DNA from: Musa acuminata AAA Group
Lineage: Eukaryota > Streptophyta > Magnoliopsida > Zingiberales > Musaceae
Length of the DNA: 64,000 nt
Direction: 5' to 3'
NCBI RefSeq assembly: GCF_036884655.1
Contig: NC_088327.1
Coordinates: 17,501,001-17,565,000, forward strand
In this document: piece after piece, positions 4,316 through 53,990 of the stretch
Layout: each line of letters starts with the position of its first letter
Numbering within the stretch: position 1 is the stretch's first letter
Translations under genes and position numbers: made by a program
The notes under the pieces: generated by a model
What the model saw: the letters and a program-made list of their open reading frames with translations, nothing else
Database searches by the model: none
Told to the model about the DNA's origin: nothing

Positions 4316-4764
4316 TGTTGAATCTCAGATTTTGATGATGAAACTAATTGATTGTTTAACTGCATTTTGAGTGATGCAGGTCTACTCGATCAGGATTAGA
4401 CAGTTGACGCAGGAGGAATTGACGTTGCGCCGGAGGAGATCACGTCAGGATATTGGATGGCTGAACGCTTCGGACGTCGATCATCGGGCCAAGGAGAGCG
4501 GAATTGCGCCAAGGATATCGGGGTTGCAGAGGTCAACCGCCGATTGGGCAACAAGCCGCAAGAGAGGACGATGTGCTGAAGAATCGGACGAAGCGCCAAC
4601 CAATGACGTGCCGGGCAACAGAATGTCAATTCGCGTTGTAATAATTGTCTAGATCGGAGTAGAGTTTTAGCTTGTGTGTGCAGGATTAACTACGATAACG
4701 ACGAAGACATAAAGCAAAACAAAGTGTCGGAGTCAAGCACGAAGGATTCGTTGCGAGTTCGAGA

Positions 4765-5035
4765 GTTCGACGGAAATCCGAAGGTTCGTCGGGAATGCTG
4801 CTGGAACTAGCCGAGAATGAGTAGGGAGCTTGCCGAAGGGTTTTTCGGAAGCTCACTGGAAGGTTCGTTGGAAGTTCGTGGAGCTCGCCGAGAAAGATCG
4901 GAGCTATCCGAAGAAGCTCATTGGAACTCGTCAAGATCAAATCGTGAAGTCTAGGAGCTTGCTTGGAGTTCGCAGAATGGTTTCCGAGAGTTTATCGGAA
5001 GACCGTCGGAAGTTCGTCGGAAGCTCGCCGGAAGA
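4765..5035 (+). repeat. CGGAAG-rich short-repeat block in LTR U3
   Basis: Repeats of a loose 10-12 bp unit such as TCGCCGGAAG, TCGTCGGAAG and TTCGGAAGCTC, many times in 270 bp. The same block occurs in the U3 of nearly every Sirevirus LTR here (for example 10930-11205, 21620-21860, 40540-40740, 54180-54390). Its place upstream of the TATA box suggests a regulatory role, which is an inference. Confidence 0.7.
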
Positions 5036-5212
5036 AGTCTTGACTTACGAACTTTGTAATAGCTTAGAAAATATCTTTAAATTTATAGTTAGTACATTAA
5101 TTAGGGTTAGGATTAGGTATTAATCCTATAACCCAAGTAGGGGCCAATTGGGCTCGAGTTCGGACTGGTTTGGGCCAAGTTTAGAGCCCAACCAGTGAGC
5201 TGAAATAGATTT

Positions 5213-5418
5213 GGCGGTGGCACCGCCAGATTTGGCGGTGGCACCACCAGATTTGGCGGTGGCACCACCCAGCACTCGAGAACTGAGCGGTGGCACTGCT
5301 GGACTGAGCAGTGGCACCGCTGGATTGAGCGGTGGCACCGCCCAGCACCCGAGAGGTTCGGCGGTGGCACCGCCAATACACTGTCAATGTCAGACACTGA
5401 CAGGCGGTGGCACCGCCG
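5213..5418 (+). repeat. GC-rich palindrome array upstream of LTR TATA box
   Basis: About eight copies of GGCGGTGGCACCGCC or variants, spaced by 10-20 bp. Each is an almost perfect inverted repeat (GGCGGTG / CACCGCC). The array ends about 60 bp before the TATA box. Palindrome-rich cis regions are known from maize Sirevirus LTRs. Overlapping open frames here on both strands are only by-products of the repeat. Confidence 0.88.
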
Positions 5419-5477
5419 GCCTCGGAAACCCAGGAGAATTCAAAATTTGGAGCCCAAATTTGAATCCTCTTGGAGCC

Positions 5478-10480: not shown

Positions 10481-11518
10481 TGTTGAATCTCAGATTTTGA
10501 TGTTGAAACTAATTGATTGTTTAACTACATTTTGAGTGATGCAGGTCTACTCGATCAGGATTATACAGTTGACGTAGGAGGAATTGACGTTGCGCCGGAG
10601 GAGATCACGTCAGGATATTGGATGGCTGAACGCTTCGGACGTCGAGCATCGAGCCAAGGAGAGCGGAATTGTGCCAAGGATATCGGGGTTGCGGAGGTCA
10701 ACCGCCGATTGGGCAACAAGCCGCAAGAGAGGACGATGCGCTGAAGAATCGGACGAAGCACCAACCAATGACGTGCCGGGCAACAGAATGTCAATTCGCG
10801 TTGTAATAATTGTCAAGATCAGAGTAGAGTTTTAGCTTGTGTGTGTAGGATTAACTACGATAACGACGAAGACATAAAGCGAAACAAACTGTCGGAGTCA
10901 AGCACGAAGGATTCGTTGCGAGTTCGAGAGTTCGACGGAAGTCCGAAGGTTCATCGGGAATGCTGCCAGAACTAGCCGAGAATGAGTAGGGAGCTTGCCG
11001 AAGGGTTTTTCGGAAGCTCGCCGGAAGGTTCGTTGGAAGTTCGCGGAGCTCGCCGAGAAAGATCGGAGCTTGCCGAAGAAGCTCATTGTAACTCGTCAAG
11101 ATCAAGTCGTGAAGTCTAGGACTTGTAGGGAGTCCGCAGAATGGTTTCCGAGAGTTTATCGGAAGACCGCCGGAAGTTCCCCGGAAGCTCGTCGGAAGAA
11201 GTCTTGACTTACGGACTTTGTAATCGCTTAGAAAATATCTTTAAATTCGTAGTTAGCACGTTAATTAGGGTTAGGATTAGGTGTTAATCCTATAACCCAA
11301 GTAGGGGCCAATTGGGCTCAAGTTCGGACTGGTTTAGGCCAAGTTTAGATCCCAACCAGTAAGCTAAAATAGTGTAGGTGGTGGCACCGCCCAGCACCCG
11401 AGAGGTCCGGCGGTGGTACCGCCAGTACACTGTCAGTGTCAGACATTGATAGGCGGTGGCACCGCCGGCCTCGGAAACCCAAGAGAATTCAAAATTTGGA
11501 GCCCAAATTTGAATCCTC
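10481..11518 (+). repeat. E4 3' LTR, first part
   Basis: Close copy of 4316-5470 from TGTTGAATCTCAG on. The palindrome array is reduced to a few units (11376-11475) compared with about eight in the 5' LTR. It stops at TCCTC (11514-11518), the target duplication of E5, and resumes at 19975. Confidence 0.9.
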
Positions 11519-13003
11519 TACTAGTCATAGGTGCCCAGCAAGCCAATCACGTGAGTGATGGCACGTGTGACTTGATACAGAATCTTTTTACTTATTATAT
11601 TTTAGCGTATATCACTTTATAACTATTGCATAAATGCATACATATATTGTGATGTCCTTGGATTTGTGCAATGGGAATCGGATCGTGATGAGATCACGAT
11701 AGAGATCGATTCACCTTTAAACACATATCCTAAATAATCCCGGTCATAGGTTACTCGAGAGGGACATTGTGATAACCGGACAGACTGGTGTGCTGTATAC
11801 CCGTCCATATGATGGATGCAGCTGGTCTCATAGCTGCTTATGTAGGGACACTAGGGATACAGTACAGGTGCTCATTGGAGAATGAGTTCACTAATTGATC
11901 CGCTTACGGAATGCTGGATGGTTGATGATGCCTTATTGTCAGACAGCGATTCTGTAGTCCTAGTGGTGTATCTGGTCCTTAGACTTGAGACACCAAGGAT
12001 GTCATGTATGAGTGCTCCACTCTTTGATACCAAACTTATAGGTATGGCGGTCCCAGATCTAGTACAGTTGGTCATTGAGAGTGGTAGTCGACCTTACGAG
12101 AGCTATTGAGTGTCGATAGAGGATCATCCACTCTCGGCGTCATGAGAGGAATATCCCATGTGTTCTTGCTCAGACAAATCCCTAGCCAGGGTCATTCGGG
12201 TTGAGAGAGAAAGAGTTCTCCGGGAGAATCCGATTAGAGGGAGACTCGAGTAGAAACCGTATGGGTCTGATAACACCATGCTCGATATACGGTCTCTGGG
12301 ATATTAGATGGATGAGGGACTATAGGTACATGGTAACTGAGGACAGACAGGTCCAATGGATTGGATTCCCCTATATCGTCTGGGGACTACGGCATAGTGG
12401 CCTAGTACGTCCGTAGTCGATGAGTCAAGTGAATTATTACAGAGATAATATTTCACTGAGTTAGAAGTTCTGACAGGTATGACTCACGACCAGCTCGATA
12501 TTGGGCCTAGAGGGTCACACACATATGGTAGGCATTGCGATAAGTAGAGGTTCGGATATGAGATATCCGACGGAGCCCTTGTCTTATTGGATGCAAATCC
12601 AATACCCACTAGGGGAGGACCCATTAGGGTTTGACAGGGGACCTCTATAAATAGGATGGATTCAGAGCCTCATGGGCTAGAGCTTTTGCTTGCCTCTCCT
12701 ATTCTCCTCTCCCTCTCCACCTCAGAGCAGGCCTGGAGTTTTGAGGAGCGTCGTCGCAACCCTACTGTGTGGATCACCGCTAGAGAGGACGCTCGACCTC
12801 CTTCACCTCTCCTAAGGATCTGCAAGGAAACAGGGATATACGATCTCCCTAGGTAACACAATCTACTCTATACGCAGTTTTAAGTTTCGCGGATTTTGCG
12901 TACCAATCTTCGCACGACGACGAACATCTCTTTGGGAATCGGGGATTTTGTTTTTCTTATTCTTCCGCTGCGCATATGATGTCGCCCCCAAGATTTCCCA
13001 ACA
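11519..13003 (+). repeat. E5 5' LTR (1485 bp)
   Basis: Starts TACTAGTCATAGG, with the canonical TG altered to TA (the 3' copy has TGCTAGTC), and ends AGATTTCCCAACA. The primer site follows one base later. Several small open frames inside are LTR shadows. Confidence 0.93.
12646..12653 (+). promoter_or_regulatory. TATA box of E5 5' LTR
   Basis: TATAAATA in GGGGACCTCTATAAATAGGA; the 3' LTR copy is at 19613-19620. Confidence 0.75.
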
Positions 13004-13004
13004 G

Positions 13005-13016
13005 TGGTATCAGAGC
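13005..13016 (+). promoter_or_regulatory. E5 primer binding site
   Basis: TGGTATCAGAGC one base after the LTR. Confidence 0.92.
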
Positions 13017-13099
13017 CAGGTTGTTTGTGCGAATGATTGGTTTTGAACTGCGTGTGTTGTGTTTAGGAAGAATTTTGACGTCAAAATCGTTGATGCAAA

Positions 13100-13540
13100 A
13101 ACTAGGAAGGGCAGCAACAGTTACTGCCCTCAATCTGCGTGCGTGCAGCGCAGCCGAAGGCGGGCAGTACAGGGGCTGCGTCTGCAACAACCGGCCGGCG
13201 GCCTTCTTGCAGTAGGCTTGCGTCCGACGGGGCTGGCAACCCGCGGGCAAAGGCGCCTGCGGTCGCTTCTCCAGCGAGGTGAGGCGCCGTAGGGCAGCGG
13301 CGCTTGCCGCCGCTGCTCCCATGGGCGAAACTCCCCCCACCACAGGGGCGGTCACCCGGCGGGACAGCACCGCCTGCGGGCGTTGCCCCACCGGTAGAAC
13401 CGCCCGCGGGGGGCGCCCCCTGCAGCGGCAGCGCCGTCAACGGGCGTGCCGCCTACAAGCGAGGGCAGCGCCCTCGCCCCGCCGCACAGGCCACCGCCAG
13501 CAGGGTGGCGGCGGCGGCAGCAGTAAGAGGGAATTAGGGT
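13100..13540 (+). other. GC-rich block in E5 leader
   Basis: About 440 bp of markedly GC- and CpG-rich sequence in AT-rich surroundings. All frames on both strands stay open for 60-140 codons only because the sequence is stop-poor and rich in Ala, Pro, Gly and Arg codons; none has a recognisable domain, so I do not call a gene. It sits about 100 bp after the primer site and 1.2 kb before gag. Confidence 0.6.
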
Positions 13541-14045
13541 TTTAGGCAAAAAGATAGTTTTACCCCTATGAATTTAAGAAATTCTAGTTTTTGTCTTTTA
13601 TGCAAATTATGAAAATACCCTTAGGAATTGAGAAATTCCCAACATGTCCTTGATTTCAGAAAAAATTAATTAATTAAAAGGTTTAGTTGATTATTATTTT
13701 TATTATTATCTAGTAGTCCTACATGATGATGATTATTTATACATGTGATGTGTGATGTGTGGACGGATGATCATGGACCGTGTGATGTGTGTACTTATAA
13801 TTATTATTATTGAGGTTTGCGAGCCTCCATTATATTTCTCGTTTATTGTCGGGCCTAGGTGCCTATGATTGAGTTGTAATCACATGAGGAGGCGCAGCGG
13901 GAGCGTGGATGCGATAGCGGGACCCACGAGACGGACGATCGCGATGTATCAAGATGCATCAAAATGTCGACGGAACCGACGAGGACGAGATGGACGATCA
14001 CAGGGCATGGAGATGCACCGTTGCACACATAAATCTTGATGTGAG
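13541..14045 (+). other. E5 leader, no gene seen
   Basis: AT-rich spacer between the GC-rich block and the stem-loops. I see no domain or convincing reading frame. Confidence 0.5.
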
Positions 14046-14075
14046 TGATTAGGCCTACTAGCTCGGGCCTAATCA
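14046..14075 (+). promoter_or_regulatory. Perfect stem-loop in E5 leader
   Basis: TGATTAGGCC pairs with GGCCTAATCA (10 bp, no mismatch) around a 10-nt loop. It lies in the transcribed leader upstream of the four related stem-loops. Confidence 0.6.
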
Positions 14076-14306
14076 TATTAGGTTGTGGTCCATGATCATC
14101 TGGTGTGATTACTTATACACATACTAGATATGTATATATATTTGCATGCAATGTAGATATATATTAAATATGTATATGTGTGACATGTCATATTAGGAGA
14201 CCAAATCATAAAAACATCTCTCGATAATATTAAGTCGGTAAACGTGAGGCAATTAGATTGACCCACGTGGCCTTCCATCATTATAAGTAGGAACCGATTC
14301 CCGGTG

Positions 14307-14619
14307 TAGGTTGAGTTGGTCGAGTCCCTCGAGGCTTACCTATATCGCGATTCGCTATCTTGCTTACGACATAGAGATGTCACCGGTGACCTGAGGGCAT
14401 GGTATGTTTGGTCGAGTCCCTCGAGGGTATATCATCAAATCGGACTCATCTTGTAACGAAGGTGTTGACTTAACCGAGCATCATGGTTGGTCAAGTCCCT
14501 CGAGGCCATGGTGATTCGGAGGCCGAACAAGATGGGAATCACAAGGAGTTGTGATCGGCAAGAGTTGCCTACCTTTTAGGCTTAGTGTGATTGGTCGAGT
14601 CCCTCGAGGTTACACTAAG
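14307..14619 (+). promoter_or_regulatory. Four stem-loops sharing a TTGGTCGAGTCCCTCGAGG apex
   Basis: The 19-mer TTGGTCGAGTCCCTCGAGG occurs at 14316-14334, 14408-14426, 14487-14505 (one change, CAAG) and 14591-14609. The 19-mer holds its own small hairpin (CGAG/CTCG). Each copy is flanked by complementary arms of different sequence: ATGGTATGT/GTATATCAT, CATCATGG/CCATGGTG, CTTAGTGTGA/TTACACTAAG, and a weaker TAGGT-GAG/CTT-ACCTA. Conserved loops on unrelated but compensating stems point to selected RNA structure. The array ends 185 bp before gag, where packaging, dimerisation or translation signals would act; the function is inferred. Confidence 0.75.
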
Positions 14620-14804
14620 ACGCTGATTGGATCCTGATCCCCACTAGAAGTCTGTCGGAGACTTCCGTTTCACGTGCTGAGGGTGTCGCGTGACTCGTTA
14701 GTAAAATAGTGGGAGCATATTAAGATAGAAGTCCATATCTTGATAGTTTATTTCTTGCAAAATCTGCATGTTATTCATTTCTGCTGCATCTTTATTTTCA
14801 GAAA

Positions 14805-15604
14805 ATGTCGCTTTCAAATCCTTTACGTGGCATACTTGATGTCAACCGCCTCACTGGTCCAAATTATATGGATTGGCTCCGTAACTTGAGAATTGTTCTC
14901 ACAGCGGAGAAAATCGTGTACGTCCTTGATACAGTGATGCCTACGCCCGAAGAAGGGGCAAACGAGGATAAGATTGCTCGCTACGTGAAGTACATTGATG
15001 ATTCAACTCTTTCTCAGTGCTATATGTTGGGCTCTATGACTCCTGAGTTATAGAGACAACATGAAAAGATGGATGCCAGATCTATTCTCCTACATGTCCG
15101 CAAATTGTTTGAGGAACAGGGAAGGACTCAGCGATATGAGATATCTAAGAGCCTCTTCCGCGCTAGGATGACTAAGGGGACACCGGTTCAGAACCATGTC
15201 CTAAAGATGATTGAGTGGATAGAGAAACTCACAGGTCTAGGAATGGTCCTAAAGGATAACTTGTGTGTGGACATTGTGCTTTAGTCCCTACCAGATTCCT
15301 TTTCACAGTTCATAATGAATTTTAATATGAACAAGCTTGGGTGACTCTCCCAGAGCTCCTCAATATGTTGAGGGAGGCAGAGAGTACTATTAAGAAAGAG
15401 AAGCCAGTTCTCTACACTGGTGAGATAAAAAAGAAAAGGAAAGCAAAAAGGTCCCTTAAGAAGGGAAAGGGCAAGGGCAAACCAGGTAAAGTAAAGGTTG
15501 CTAAGAAAGACCCAGCAAAGGACAAAGGCCAGTGCTTCCACTGTGGCAAAGATGGGCACTGGAAGAGGAACTGCAAAGAGTACCTTGCAGAGAGGGCGAA
15601 ATAG
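14805..15604 (+). pseudogene. gag: E5 gag with zinc knuckle
   Basis: Copia Gag, the capsid and nucleocapsid protein. The start MSLSNPLRGILDVNRLTGP is typical of copia gag. The frame continues through YEISKSLFRARMTKGTPV and ends with a perfect CCHC knuckle, [14 protein letters not shown] (about 15534-15575). It is broken by TAG at 15051-15053 (before RQHEK) and 15282-15284 (before SLPDS), and by TAG at 15602-15604 (before KLGEAS). All three sit where relatives have CAG (Gln). A small deletion near 15340 (AAGCTTGGGTGAC) shifts the frame. Without these breaks it would be one continuous gag of the usual length. Confidence 0.9.
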
Positions 15605-15808: not shown

Positions 15809-16771
15809 GTGTCTAAGAGGAAACGAGATGAGATTAACAGTGCATACCTATGGCATTGTAGACTAGGTCACATTCATGAAAGAAGGATTCAAAAGTTGCT
15901 AAATGATGGATATCTAGATCCATTCGACTATGTGTCATATGCAACTTGCGAGCCTTGCCTTCGTGGAAAACTGACCAACTCTCCATTTAGTGGAATTGGA
16001 GAGAGAGCCACTAAGCTGTTGGAACTCACACATAGTGATGTATGTAGACCCATGCCAACTCATGCCATTGGAGGTTACTCCTACTTCATTACATTTATTG
16101 ATGATTTCTCAAGGTATGGATATGTGTACTTAATGAAGTACAAGTCCGAGGCCTTTGAGAAATTCAGAGAGTATAAGAATGAGATGGAGAACCAGACTGG
16201 AAAGAGTATCAAAACTCTTCGATCAGATCGAGGAGGTGAGTACTTAAGTACAGAGTTTACTCAGTTCCTCAAGGACCATGGGATATTATCCCAATGGACA
16301 CCTCCTTATACACCTCAGCTCAATGGTGTCTTTGAAAGGAGAAATCGTACGTTATTAGATATGGTACAGTCCATGATGAATTTTGCTGACCTACCCATCT
16401 CATTCTGGGGATATGCCCTAGAAACCGTAGCTTACCTTCTGAACAGAGTTCCAACTAAGTCGGTAGTGTCTACACCATATGAGATATGGAAAGGGAAGAA
16501 GCCTGATCTTAAGATTGTTAAGATTTGGGGCTGCCTTGCCCATGTTAAAAGACACAACCCCGATAAGTTAGAATCAAGGACAGAGCGATGCAAATTTATG
16601 GGATACCCCAAGGAAACTTGTGGGTATTATTTCTATCATCTCGAGGACCAAAAGGTCTTTGTAGCTAAGAGAGCAATGTTCCTTGAGAAAGAACACATTC
16701 TTGGCGGAGACAGTGGGAGAATGATAGAGTTGAGCGAGGTTGGAGAACCAAGCTCAAGCACCACTCTATAG
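15809..16771 (+). pseudogene. E5 integrase, open but cut by one TAG
   Basis: Copia integrase, which joins element DNA to the chromosome. The HHCC zinc domain is complete (LWHCRLGHIHERR ... ATCEPCLRGK), as is the D,D,E core: Asp in LTHSDVCRP, Asp in RSDRGGEYLS, Glu in NGVFERRNRTLLDMV. The C-terminal part has the usual KPDLKIVKIWGCLAHV. It stops at TAG 16769-16771; the RT frame continues in the same phase 82 bases on, so a single CAG to TAG change explains the split. The annotated start Met is internal; the natural frame was part of one Gag-Pol. Confidence 0.92.
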
Positions 16772-16852
16772 CCCGAGTCTGTTCAGGTACCTAATACACA
16801 AGTTTCAACTTTACACAGGTCTGATAGAGTATCCCATCCTCCTGAGAGATAT

Positions 16853-18466
16853 GTGGGACATATTAGAGGAGAGGATGTTGAGGATATTGATCCTCAGACC
16901 TACGAGGAGGCTATTATGAGTATAGACTCCGGGAAGTGGCAAGAAGCCATGAATTCTGAGATGGATTCTATGTACTCTAATAAGGTTTGGAACCTAGTTA
17001 ATGCACCCGAAGGTATTGTACCCATCAGTTGCAAGTGGATCTTTAAGAAAAAGATCGGAGTAGATGGAAAGGTAGAGACCTATAAAGCAAGGCTAGTGGC
17101 TAAGGGGTATCGTCAAAGGCAAGGTGTTGACTACGACGAAACCTTCTCACCCGTAGCAATGCTAAAATCCATCAGAATTCTATTTGCTATTGCAGCACAC
17201 TATGATTATGAGATCTGGCAAATGGATGTGAAAACCGCATTTCGTAATGGGAACCTCGAGGAGGAGGTGTATATGATGCAACATGAGGGATTCGTGTCCA
17301 AGAACTGCCCAGATAAGGTGTGTAGGTTGCTTAGATCCATTTATGGACTAAAGCAAGCTTCCCGAAGTTGGAACATAAGATTTGATGAGGCAATCAGATC
17401 TTATGACTTGGTTAAGAACGAAAATGAGCCTTGTGTGTACAGAAAGGTAAGTGGGAGCGCTATCACCTTTTTGGTGTTATATGTGGATGACATCCTGATC
17501 ATTGGGAATGACATAGGAATGTTATCCACAGTAAAGGCTTGGTTTTCTAGACACTTCTCCATGAAGGACTTAGGGGAAGCATTCTATATCTTGGGGATTA
17601 GAATCTATACAGATAGATCCAAGAGGATGCTTGGCTTGTCCCAGTCCAGGTACATAGAAACCATTGTCAAAAGGTTTGGTATGGAAAATTCCAAGAGAGG
17701 TCTCATACCGATGAGACATGGGATATCGCTTTCTATGAGTATGTCCCGAAAGACTCCAGAAGAAAGGGCGAACATGAATATGATACCTTATGCCTCAGCA
17801 ATACAGTCTATCATGTATGTCATGCTATGTACTAGGCCTAATATAGCGCATGCTTTAAGTGTCACGAGCAGGTATCAGGAGGATCCAGGCTTGGAGCACT
17901 GGAAAGCAGTAAAGTGTATCCTTAAGTACTTGAGAAGGACTAAGGATCTTTTACTAGTATATGGAGGTAATAGCCTTAAGGTTGAAGGCTACAATGACTC
18001 AAGTTTTCAGTTTGATGTCGATGATAGCAAGTCGAATTCAGGGTATGTGTACACCTTGAATGGAGGAGCAGTGTGCTGGAAGAATTCCAAGCAAGATACC
18101 ACTGTTGACTCGACCACAGAGGCAGAGTATATTGCCGCATTAGATGCAGCAAAGGAGGGAGTCTGGTTGAAGAAGTTCATTACAGATTTGGGAGTCGTGC
18201 CGGGTAGCGAGGAGCCAATCTCCCTATATTGCGGCAACAACGGGGCGATTGCTCAAGCAAAAGAACCTAGGTCTCATCAGAAATCTAAGCATGTTCTGAG
18301 GAGGTTCCACCTTATCAGAGAGATCATAACCCGAGGAGATGTAGCAGTGGAAAGAGTTCCATCCGAAGATAACATTGCATATCCATTGACAAAGCCGTTG
18401 TCTCAGATTGTCTTTGAGCGTCACAGGGGTCTGATGGGGATCAGACATATAGGTGATTGGCTTTAG
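16853..18466 (+). CDS. E5 reverse transcriptase and RNase H (intact 537 codons)
   Basis: Continuous RT-RNase H frame, the best preserved coding sequence of any element here. Motifs in order: CKWIFKKKIGVDGKV, ARLVAKGYRQRQGVDYDE, QMDVKTAF with the first catalytic Asp, YGLKQASRSW, the active site LYVDDILIIGND, MKDLGEAFYILGI, YIETIVKRFGMENSK, then RNase H with DSTTEAEYIAALDAAKE and LYCGNNGAIAQAK (relatives have CDNNGAI, so the catalytic Asp is Gly here). It ends MGIRHIGDWL* just before the purine tract, as in BARE/Angela relatives. The frame is open, but it is cut off from gag and integrase by stops and the RNase H site is altered, so activity is doubtful. Confidence 0.93.
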   Translation: MGHIRGEDVEDIDPQTYEEAIMSIDSGKWQEAMNSEMDSMYSNKVWNLVNAPEGIVPISCKWIFKKKIGVDGKVETYKARLVAKGYRQRQGVDYDETFSPVAMLKSIRILFAIAAHYDYEIWQMDVKTAFRNGNLEEEVYMMQHEGFVSKNCPDKVCRLLRSIYGLKQASRSWNIRFDEAIRSYDLVKNENEPCVYRKVSGSAITFLVLYVDDILIIGNDIGMLSTVKAWFSRHFSMKDLGEAFYILGIRIYTDRSKRMLGLSQSRYIETIVKRFGMENSKRGLIPMRHGISLSMSMSRKTPEERANMNMIPYASAIQSIMYVMLCTRPNIAHALSVTSRYQEDPGLEHWKAVKCILKYLRRTKDLLLVYGGNSLKVEGYNDSSFQFDVDDSKSNSGYVYTLNGGAVCWKNSKQDTTVDSTTEAEYIAALDAAKEGVWLKKFITDLGVVPGSEEPISLYCGNNGAIAQAKEPRSHQKSKHVLRRFHLIREIITRGDVAVERVPSEDNIAYPLTKPLSQIVFERHRGLMGIRHIGDWL

Positions 18467-18480: not shown

Positions 18481-19974
18481 TGCTAGTCATAGGTGCCCAG
18501 TAAGCCAATCACATGAGTGATGGCACGTGTGACTTGATACAGAATCTTTTTGCTTATTATATTTTGGCGTATATCACTTTATAACTATTGCATAAATGCA
18601 TACATATATTGTGATGTCCTTGGATTTGTGCAATGGGAATCGGATCGTGATGAGATCACGATAACGAGATCGATTCACCTTTAAACATATATCCTAAATA
18701 ATCCTGGTCATAGGTTACTCGAGAGGGACATCGTGATAACCGGACAGACTAGTGTGCTGTATACCCGTCCATATGATGGATGCAACTGGTCTCATAGCTG
18801 CTCGTGTAGGGACACTAGGGATACAATACAGGTGCTCATTGGAGAATGAGTTCACTGATTGATCCGCTTACGTAATGCAAGATGGTTGATGATGCCTTAT
18901 TGTCAGACAGTAATTCTGTAGTCCTAGTGGTGTATCTGGTCCTTAGACTTGAGACACCAAGGATGTCCTGTATGAGTGCTCCACTCTTTGATACCAGACT
19001 TATAGGTTTGGCTGTCCCAGATCTAGTACAACTGGTTATTGGGAGTGGTAGTCAACCTTACGAGGGCTATTGAGTGTCGATAGAGGATCATCCACTCTCG
19101 GCGTCATGAGAGGAATATCCCATGTGTTTTTGCTCAGACTAATCCCTAGCCAGGGTCATTCGGGTTGAGAGAGAAAGTGTTCTCCGGGAGAATCCGATTA
19201 GAGCGAGACTCGAGTAGAAACCATATAAGTCTGACAACACCATGCTCGATATACGGTCTCTGAGATATTAGATGGATGAGGAACTATAGGTACACGATAA
19301 CTGAGGACAGACAGGTCCAATGGATTGGATTCCCCTGTATCGTCTAGGGACTACGGTGTAGTGGCCTAGTACGTCTGTAGTCGATGAGTCAAGTGAATTA
19401 TTACAGAGATAATAATTCACTGAGTTAGAAGGAGTTCTGACAGGTATGACTCACGGCCAGCTCGATATTGGGCCTAGAGGGTCACACACATATGGTAGGC
19501 ATTGCGATAAGTAGAGGTTCGGATATGAGATATCCGACGGAGCCCTTGTCTTATTGGATGCAGATCCAATACCCACTAGGGGAGGACCCATTAGGGTTTG
19601 ACAGGGGACCTCTATAAATAGGAGAGATTCAGAGCCTCATGGGCTAGAGTTTTTGCTTGTCTCTCCTATTCTCCTCTCCCTCTCCACCTTAGAGTAGGCC
19701 TGGAGTTTTGAGGAGCGTCGTCGCAACCCTACTGTGTGGATTACCGCTAGAGAGGAGGACGCTTGACCTCCTTCACCCTCTCCTAAGGATCTGTAAGGAA
19801 ACAGGGATATACGATCTCCCTAGGTAACACAATCTACTCTATACGCAGTTTTAAGTTTCGTGGATTTTGCGTACCAATCTTCGCACGACGACGAACATCT
19901 CTTTGGGAATCGGAGATTTTGTTTTTCTTGTTCTTCCGCTGCGCATATGATGTCGCCCCCAAGATTTCGCAACA
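18481..19974 (+). repeat. E5 3' LTR (1494 bp)
   Basis: Starts TGCTAGTCATAGG and ends AGATTTCGCAACA. It matches the 5' LTR closely, with transitions dominating the differences. TATA box at 19613-19620. Followed by the TCCTC duplication. Confidence 0.94.
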
Positions 19975-20494
19975 TCCTCTTGGAGCCTATAAATACCCCT
20001 AATTTCTCAGCAGAGAATACAACTTTTGAGAAGCATTAGATTGAGACAAAAGTCTTTGTAAAGTCTTTAGCAAGTCTTGTTTTCAATTGCTTGAGTGTTC
20101 ACCTCCTTCTTTCTCTATGAAAATTTACAAGAGAGTGAACCACTTGTAAAAGGTTGTAAGAGGGGTATTTGTCCTTCCCCTTTAAAGTGATTTGCTAGTG
20201 GAAGTTGGGAGCCTCATTAAAGAAGGCTTCGCAAGTGGATGTAGGTCATTTGACCGAACCACTTTAAAATTGGCGTGATCTCTGGTTTGCATTTTCTTAT
20301 TGCTATTTACATTACTGCAAACCTTCTTACATGCTTTATTTCCTCATTACCTTTGTTGCACACCTTTACGAACACGCGTTTAAGTTAAGCTTTTCAAGTT
20401 CGGTTTTTTATCGTACGAAAGATTTTTCCAAAACCGAAGTTTTAATCCGCTGCACTAATTCACCCCCCCTCTTAGTGCCACTCTGATCCTAACA
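19975..20494 (+). repeat. E4 3' LTR, second part
   Basis: Resumes with TCCTC (E5 duplication) then TTGGAGCCTATAAATACCCC, matching 5466 onward, and ends CTGATCCTAACA at 20494. The TATA box is at 19988-19995, so E5 separated U3 from the promoter by 8.5 kb. Confidence 0.92.
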
Positions 20495-53393: not shown

Positions 53394-53990
53394 TGTAAGT
53401 CATAGGTGCCCTATAAACCAATAACGTGAGTGATAGCATATATGACATGTTATGTTGTTTTTTTATTTATTATTATTATTGATATTTTTTTATTTTATGT
53501 TGTATATCGCATATATTGTGATGTCCAAGGATCTGTACAATGAGAATCTGATAGTGATGAGATCGTAATAATGAGACCGATTCACTTTTAAACACAGACC
53601 CTAAATAATTCCAATCGCAGATTACTCAAGAGGGACATCAAAATAACCAAATAGATTAGTATGCTATATGCCCATCTATATGATGGAGGTGGTTAGTCTC
53701 ATAGCTGCTCGTGTGAGGACACTAGGGATACAATATAAGTATTCATTGGAGAATGAGTTCATTGATTGATCTGCTCACGGAATGTTGGATGGTTAATGAT
53801 ACCTCATTATCAAACAATAATTTCATGGTCCTAGTCGTGTGTCTGGTCCTTAAACTTGAGATACCAAGGATGTCTTGTATGAGTGCTCAACTCTTTAATA
53901 CTGGACTTATATGTCTAAAAGTTCTAGATTTAGCATAGCCTGGGAGTGATAGCTAACTTTATGATCACAATTGAGTGTCGATAGAGGATA
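53394..53990 (+). repeat. Truncated, old copia LTR of the E5 family
   Basis: Begins TGTAAGTCATAGGTGCC and follows the E5 LTR text (CATATATTGTGATGTCC, GAATGAGTTCATTGATTGAT, GAGTGTCGATAGAGGAT) with many changes, then stops about 600 bp in. Much older than E5. Confidence 0.8.

Follow-up and report, generated by a model that had tools for sequence, protein, structure and literature searches.

The locus analyzed here raises the question why a plant retrotransposon should carry the same 19-nt sequence four times in its leader, each time enclosed by arms of its own. The window, i.e., the whole stretch of 64,000 nucleotides that was analyzed, contains the element E5, a Ty1/copia LTR retrotransposon with two LTRs, a TSD (the 5-bp duplication TCCTC at 11514-11518 and 19975-19979), a primer binding site (PBS), a polypurine tract (PPT), and an integrase located before the reverse transcriptase (RT; Table 1). 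The LTRs have a length of ~1.49 kb and the leader of 1.8 kb, and the PBS TGGTATCAGAGC is presumably of the initiator Met tRNA type. The gag and pol frames are broken in the window copy, and in other copies of the family the longest open frames listed reach 1329 codons. The protein relatives of E5, where named, mostly bear names of plant elements, and an Ensete ventricosum protein shares 81% identity over 74% of the integrase query. The stretch at 53398-53989 and the beginning of the E5 LTRs are ~76% alike; a second E5-like leader is not present elsewhere in the 64-kb window.

Table 1. Features of E5 and its leader, numbered from the first nucleotide of the window.
Feature	Position	Strand	Remarks
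5' LTR of E5	11519..13003	+	self-BLAST, 95.3% to 3' LTR; ends read directly
Primer binding site TGGTATCAGAGC	13005..13016	+	sequence
Hairpin H1	14302..14347	+	13 arm pairs, bulged T14312; apex 14316-14334
Hairpin H2	14399..14435	+	9 arm pairs; apex 14408-14426; folds in copy L017
Hairpin H3	14474..14519	+	13 arm pairs (8+5), bulged A14514; apex 14487-14505; folds in copy L017
Hairpin TTCGG-AGG-CCGAA	14515..14527	+	competes with outer arm of H3; sequence and alignment
Hairpin H4	14581..14619	+	10 arm pairs; apex 14591-14609
TAAAATAGTGGGAG	14702..14715	+	identical and collinear in L066a and L067; includes the octamer of the 3' PPT
gag	14805..15604	+	copia type, one CCHC knuckle; stops and frameshift in window copy
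Integrase and RT open stretches	15809..18466	+	
3' LTR of E5	18481..19974	+	self-BLAST; ends read directly

The sequence TTGGTCGAGTCCCTCGAGG is located at 14316, 14408, 14487 (with one change) and 14591, all before gag, and a mismatch search revealed no further site with up to three mismatches elsewhere in the 64-kb window and none in 100 shuffles. The sequence-only reading of this DNA, which had reported four copies with a single change in one of them, was therefore correct in this point. According to a pair-by-pair count, each E5 core consists of a five-pair mini-stem with a three-base loop, plus two U-G pairs and a bulge of two G, so that the apex has its own hairpin as claimed, with one pair of the mini-stem broken in H3. 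This is due to a change from G to A at a CpG at position 14493. Since 44 of the 45 loci with all four cores, out of 57 loci viewed (L009-L065), keep the G at the equivalent position, the change looks like decay of the window copy. The arm lengths given earlier for H2 and H4 (9 and 10 pairs) stand, whereas H3 has 8+5 pairs with one bulged A instead of 8+4. H1 had been called weaker, with 8 pairs, which does not hold as it forms 13 pairs around one bulged T; the weakest hairpin is H2. The G-U wobbles noted in the arms amount to 9 of the 45 pairs over H1-H4 of the window copy, and the distance from the end of H4 to the gag ATG is indeed 185 nt. Over 34 nt the four repeat copies are 68-85% alike, mostly owing to the 19-mer. 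A simple tandem duplication with identical arms would have spoken against selected structure, but the arms of the four copies differ from each other, and a head-to-tail tandem repeat is excluded since none was reported.

The pairing of the arms is specific for the respective stem. Scored as 16-nt arms with a neutral linker between them, the native arms of H1-H4 reach -24.2, -13.5, -28.1, and -21.9 kcal/mol, compared to -6.7 to -13.5 for the 12 swapped pairs; H1, H3, and H4 thus beat all swapped pairs and H2 ties with the best of them. Dinucleotide-shuffled arms fold as well as those of H1-H4 in 38, 333, 2, and 16 of 5000 cases, respectively, and with 18-nt arms in 0, 34, 0, and 0 of 2000. In a scan of 1751 leader positions, which takes in the GC-rich part of the leader and is a stricter, less flattering comparison, 2.3, 26, 0.6, and 3.7% of the positions pair at least as well as H1-H4. 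When the whole region of the window copy is folded (z -2.2), H1 and H4 form in the MFE structure and the regions of H2 and H3 pair together. Copy L017, which belongs to the main family group, forms all four hairpins in the MFE as well as the centroid structure (z -4.2; 0 of 100 shuffles). In Rfam, the window at 12500-15500 had two matches (E 0.17 and 0.74), which lie outside the array and fall far short of the gathering score.

The leader has further features besides the array. The PPT octamer AGTGGGAG occurs at 14708, 16712, 17450, and 18471, the 3' PPT included, with 0.13 occurrences expected in the internal region; its leader copy at 14708 is conserved in the relatives L066a and L067 described below and is perhaps an extra plus-strand start. 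A perfect 14-nt inverted repeat is located at 13766-13779 and 14087-14100, 307 nt apart, and the stretch at 13120-13540 is GC-rich by eye, with many positions pairing strongly across a 19-nt gap.

E5 belongs to an abundant family of the host. The exact 19-mer is found 15,900 times in the host genome of 1.53 Gb (7,737 forward, 8,163 reverse), and the reversed 19-mer, used as a control, is absent there. From the first contig, 40 regions were taken in listing order, of which 35 cover the whole array; together with the window they form an alignment of 36 rows, 31 of them distinct. Pairing is kept in 97.7% of the cells, and the case that the 19-mer is kept but the arm pairing lost was not seen, since the arms are retained along with the 19-mer in these 36 copies. 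The covariation check proposed for the family leaders was run and gave no excess over shuffles, with one pair changed on both sides vs. 1.1 in the shuffles; there is thus no covariation within the E5 family, and its pairing is maintained by plain sequence identity. Bases that depart from the majority make up 3.4% outside the hairpins and 2.4% in the arms; within the core, their share is 2.1% for paired and 1.25% for unpaired bases, so the hairpin parts seem slightly more constant than their surroundings. In the larger set L009-L065, 4 of the 57 loci lie outside the E5 family. All 45 loci with four cores have G or A, both of which can pair, at core base 19 opposite U1, and the H1 tip ends with GAGA in 37 of them. 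Two very similar copies, L054 and L061, have TTAG instead of TTGG in all four cores. A concerted change of the bulge was rejected as a general feature, since the TTAG core, which is present 632 times genome-wide, occurs as 10 neighbouring pairs among 100 places listed, which by a rough estimate is about what independent change would give.

Distant relatives were found by one scan of prokaryote assemblies with the integrase alignment, which yielded six loci, including four plant-like copia loci: L066 in a Solirubrobacter assembly, L067 in Geminicoccus, and L068 and L069 in Labilibacter. By our reading, these four are probably plant-like copia contaminants of the bacterial assemblies. The integrase of the distant copia relatives is 63% identical, and L070 and L071 show 37% identity. 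Locus L066 holds two elements: L066a is 90% like L067 over 2.97 kb, array and pol included, and L066b is 97% like L067 over 2.63 kb; L066b and L068 are cut by contig ends. Plant-like copia DNA annotated as bacterial genes was also seen in two records filed as plasmids (L072 and L073; NZ_CP115302.1 and NZ_CP115454.1), which begin ~240-250 nt before the integrase match and which we read as contamination as well. IMG/VR contains no match to the 19-mer and no relatives, and no match was found in phages.

L066 and L067 have an array that is homologous to that of E5. It was found from exact repeats and by reading; an unguided scan for hairpins with similar tips missed it, and found H1 and H4 in E5. 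The tips of L067 are located at 4936, 5027, 5112, and 5220, i.e., with spacings of 91/85/108, compared to 91/86/108 in L066a, 92/85 up to the contig end in L066b and 92/79/104 in E5. In the alignment of L067 to E5 (150 shuffles per score), z is 7.8 when the whole stretch before gag is taken. The array alone reaches 5.0, the flanks 5.6 and 5.1, and the spacers between the hairpins 1.4, 4.4, and 3.6, compared to 0.3 and -0.3 for two off-target controls. Since BLAST finds only scraps between the L067 and E5 leaders, e.g., the 14-nt TAAAATAGTGGGAG, and identity in the MAFFT alignment is 38-64% per 50 columns, this homology is presumably old. In L066a, L066b, and L067, H1 has UUGG, a five-pair mini-stem, a four-base loop and GG or GA on a stem that differs from that of E5 and comprises 18-19 arm pairs (0 of 2000 shuffles as good). 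On the plus strand, a scan for this motif (UUGG, five-pair stem, short loop, two purines) gave five sites in the 64-kb window, of which three belong to the array. L066 has two sites, both of them H1, and L067 has two as well, one being H1; L068 and L069 have none. H2-H4 of L066 and L067 bear another tip, CCAATAACCTATCATGTGAGG or variants of it, with CC...GG in place of UUGG, which is diverged in H2 of L066a; the GG bulge is therefore not universal. Of these stems, H4 is strong (matched by 5 and 3 of 2000 shuffles), H3 moderate (87, 57, and 10 of 2000 for L067, L066a, and L066b, respectively) and H2 weak (184, 318, and 188), and the MFE structure of L067 contains H1 and H4 as the only ones of the four hairpins. 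Rfam gave no match for L067 at 4700-5420. Moreover, L067 has TTTAG-AGG-CTAAA aligned with the small hairpin that follows the E5 H3 (Table 1). The 3' arm TTCGG of H3 can pair either upstream with CCGAG in H3 or downstream with CCGAA across the AGG loop, and L067 has CTAAA/TTTAG/CTAAA at the place aligned with 14474-14527, which suggests a conserved two-state switch.

The relatives differ in their gag. All three E5 gag pieces match L068 and two match L069 (E 1.5e-8 or better), and none of the three matches L066 or L067. In the 981-aa open stretch of L066a, domains of integrase, RT and the protease region (Pol_BBD) were recognized, but neither gag nor CCHC gave a match. A single gag loss may underlie both L066a and L067, which would then be one gag-less lineage and count as one observation. 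No aligning array was found in the gag-bearing L069 (z 0.1 to E5 and 2.4 to L067), which has repeated motifs 81 nt apart. In the host genome, the gag pattern has 17 hits; 13 have the E5 leader and the remaining 4 nothing that matches it. Searches there with P0001 and with the L068 gag yielded identities of 65-66% (best 103 scored of 52,300 candidates) and 43-45% (best 147 scored of 17,964), respectively, and these evenly identical matches would each fit one family.

Between the lineages, compensated changes were observed in H3. Of its pair columns, 3 of 8 are changed on both sides between L067 and L066a, 2 of 9 between L067 and L066b and 1 of 11 between L066a and L066b, in each case with no single-sided change, and between E5 and L067 there are two double and one single change in five columns. 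Among L067, L066a, and L066b the compensated changes come from H3 only, since the pairs of H2 and H4 do not vary there and H1 has one-sided changes in 3 of 18 pairs (L067 vs. either of the others) and no double change. For H1 and H3 together, five leaders have 14 pairs changed on both sides vs. 7.1 (sd 1.9) in shuffles, a value reached in 1 of 500, and sliding the partners leaves 2-6; these five sequences are effectively two lineages, and the structure came from RNAalifold on the same alignment. The number of further pair types (24 vs. 24.8 in shuffles) is the one of five measures without excess, and the covariation term of RNAalifold on the five leaders is +0.26, i.e., no net support. E5 and L067 have no common pair columns for H1 and H2 because their TTGG tips are offset by four columns in the MAFFT alignment; with TTGG as the anchor, their H1 pairs appear by reading to differ nearly along the whole stem. 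Selection for RNA structure, as it had been proposed, thus gains support from the distant relatives with their homologous array and changed stems, and none from covariation within the E5 family.

What could such an array be good for? We give a probability of about one half to the explanation that the four hairpins are one functional element of the genomic RNA, namely a packaging signal in the form of a multivalent array to which the element's own Gag docks. A structured element is present between PBS and gag, as in retroviral-type packaging signals, and this site, the conservation as RNA and the retention without a found gag suggest a role in the handling of genomic RNA. HIV-1 NC binds first to the weakly paired, labile UUUU:GGAG and binds unpaired or weakly paired G, as stated in the available part of PMC7395439. 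In E5, the stems would serve merely as support for the apex, and the apex would offer unpaired and weakly paired guanosines, presented by the UU.GG wobbles, the two-G bulge, the 5-bp mini-stem and the tight loop, and thus the type of base that is gripped by the retroviral zinc knuckle. Four copies ~80-105 nt apart would bring several Gag onto one RNA, with which particle assembly could start. Gag-less elements like L066a and L067 would need Gag from elsewhere, as in barley, where the RNA of the gag-less BARE2 is reported, in the text available of PMC3735527, to be packaged in BARE1 particles. That the array is kept in L066a and L067 favours a packaging signal that is read by the Gag of another element, and it is the best circumstantial point for the multivalent Gag-binding role, which had been proposed before and is still only deduced. 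Docking and packaging are ranked first due to these two elements without a found gag, the location, the conservation as RNA, and the comparison of the E5 GG bulge with HIV-1 NC. The four hairpins with their repeated apex, the stem-specific pairing, the homologous array, the covariation of H3 and the array without gag are computed; that the RNA folds thus in cells, that it binds Gag and that this binding selects the RNA for packaging, we infer. More tentatively, the array might be a modular packaging code, i.e., a fixed scaffold of four hairpins with drifting stems, whose tips are alike within an element and are replaced together between lineages. E5 has four UUGG tips, and L067 one UUGG and three CCAA-type tips. 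The Gag of each lineage would then read its own tip, and gag-less elements would persist by means of a readable array.

Among the alternatives, it is conceivable, if rather doubtful, that the apex is a site for a host RNA-binding protein, through which the unspliced RNA is exported or translation starts by internal initiation or shunting past the crowded leader. Plain scanning is unlikely since 40 AUGs follow the PBS of the window copy before that of gag is reached. Export would be required by gag-less elements as well, and export of plant pararetroviruses via a structured 5' leader and the RTE/MTE elements of mouse are precedents named in the accessible part of PMC12786077. However, a host factor would give no clear reason why the tips differ between lineages and yet are shared within an element. 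Dimerisation, in which tip palindromes (CCUCGAGG in E5) seed intermolecular pairing, is unlikely. Ty1 RNA dimerises via kissing loops (PMC5454406, as far as available), and conserved dimerisation and packaging signals are ascribed to BARE2 in the text at hand (PMC3735527). Although all four window copies contain CCTCGAGG, through the region of which H2 pairs with H3 in the window fold, the E5 palindrome is buried in the mini-stem and not in a loop, and it is shortened where H1 ends with GAGA, i.e., in 37 of 45 loci. Furthermore, the tips of L066 and L067 lack the E5 palindrome. Different short palindromes are present in L067.

The Drosophila copia leader contains an enhancer, and the dyad-symmetric repeats could likewise be an enhancer downstream of the promoter, which we regard as quite improbable. 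TCGAG-TCC-CTCGA is a DNA dyad, and the repeated motifs of Sireviruses are palindromic and interpreted as transcriptional in the part available of PMC2829016. However, DNA sites need neither arms that pair with their own partners nor G-U pairs, of which E5 has the 9 counted above and the long H1 stem of L067 several, and the H1 mini-stem of L067 needs G-U, too. DNA dyads alone therefore do not account for the array with its motif-specific arms. Finally, we give hardly any credence to the array being what a module duplication left behind, without function and with stems that pair through chance or mutation bias; the zero covariation within the E5 family would fit this, but the homologous spacing and the changed yet paired stems in a distant lineage do not.

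Several known systems come close to the array. Like the barley BARE1/BARE2 pair of Ty1/copia elements, it is located in a copia leader before gag and has gag-less partners, which in barley are packaged in trans; BARE2 is stated to keep dimerisation and packaging signals, and a four-hairpin array is not described for the BARE leaders in the available text (PMC3735527). With the core encapsidation signal of HIV-1 it would share clustered NC sites in the leader, a weak U:G element and exposed G for the CCHC knuckle (PMC7395439, available part); there, the first sites are at three-way junctions, whereas E5 bears one tip on four unrelated stems as putative Gag sites. The packaging and dimerisation domain of the Ty1 leader also consists of structured cis signals, but Ty1 Gag lacks a zinc knuckle, and a pseudoknot and kissing loops are described instead of a repeated-tip array (PMC4974528 and PMC5454406, as far as accessible). 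The palindromic motifs of Sireviruses are multi-copy dyads in non-coding DNA of plant copia elements as well; they are located in the 3' LTR, ahead of the TATA box, or next to the env-like gene and, unlike in E5, no motif-specific flanking arms are described in the accessible part of the source (PMC2829016). The part available of a 2025 review does not mention any packaging signal by name (PMC12786077), and among the papers listed by full-text searches, which included few subscription papers, none shows such an array in its title or start of abstract. The array is probably a cis-signal of the leader with an unusual repeated-tip design, to which the BARE signals, known by description, are the nearest statement.

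LTR retrotransposons make up a large share of many plant genomes, and with its 15,900 exact 19-mers the E5 family is abundant in its host. The four-site array with its natural variants is a compact and testable candidate for a packaging signal. If this is true, it would explain the spread of gag-less copies, and the specificity of packaging between families would be predictable from the leader sequence.
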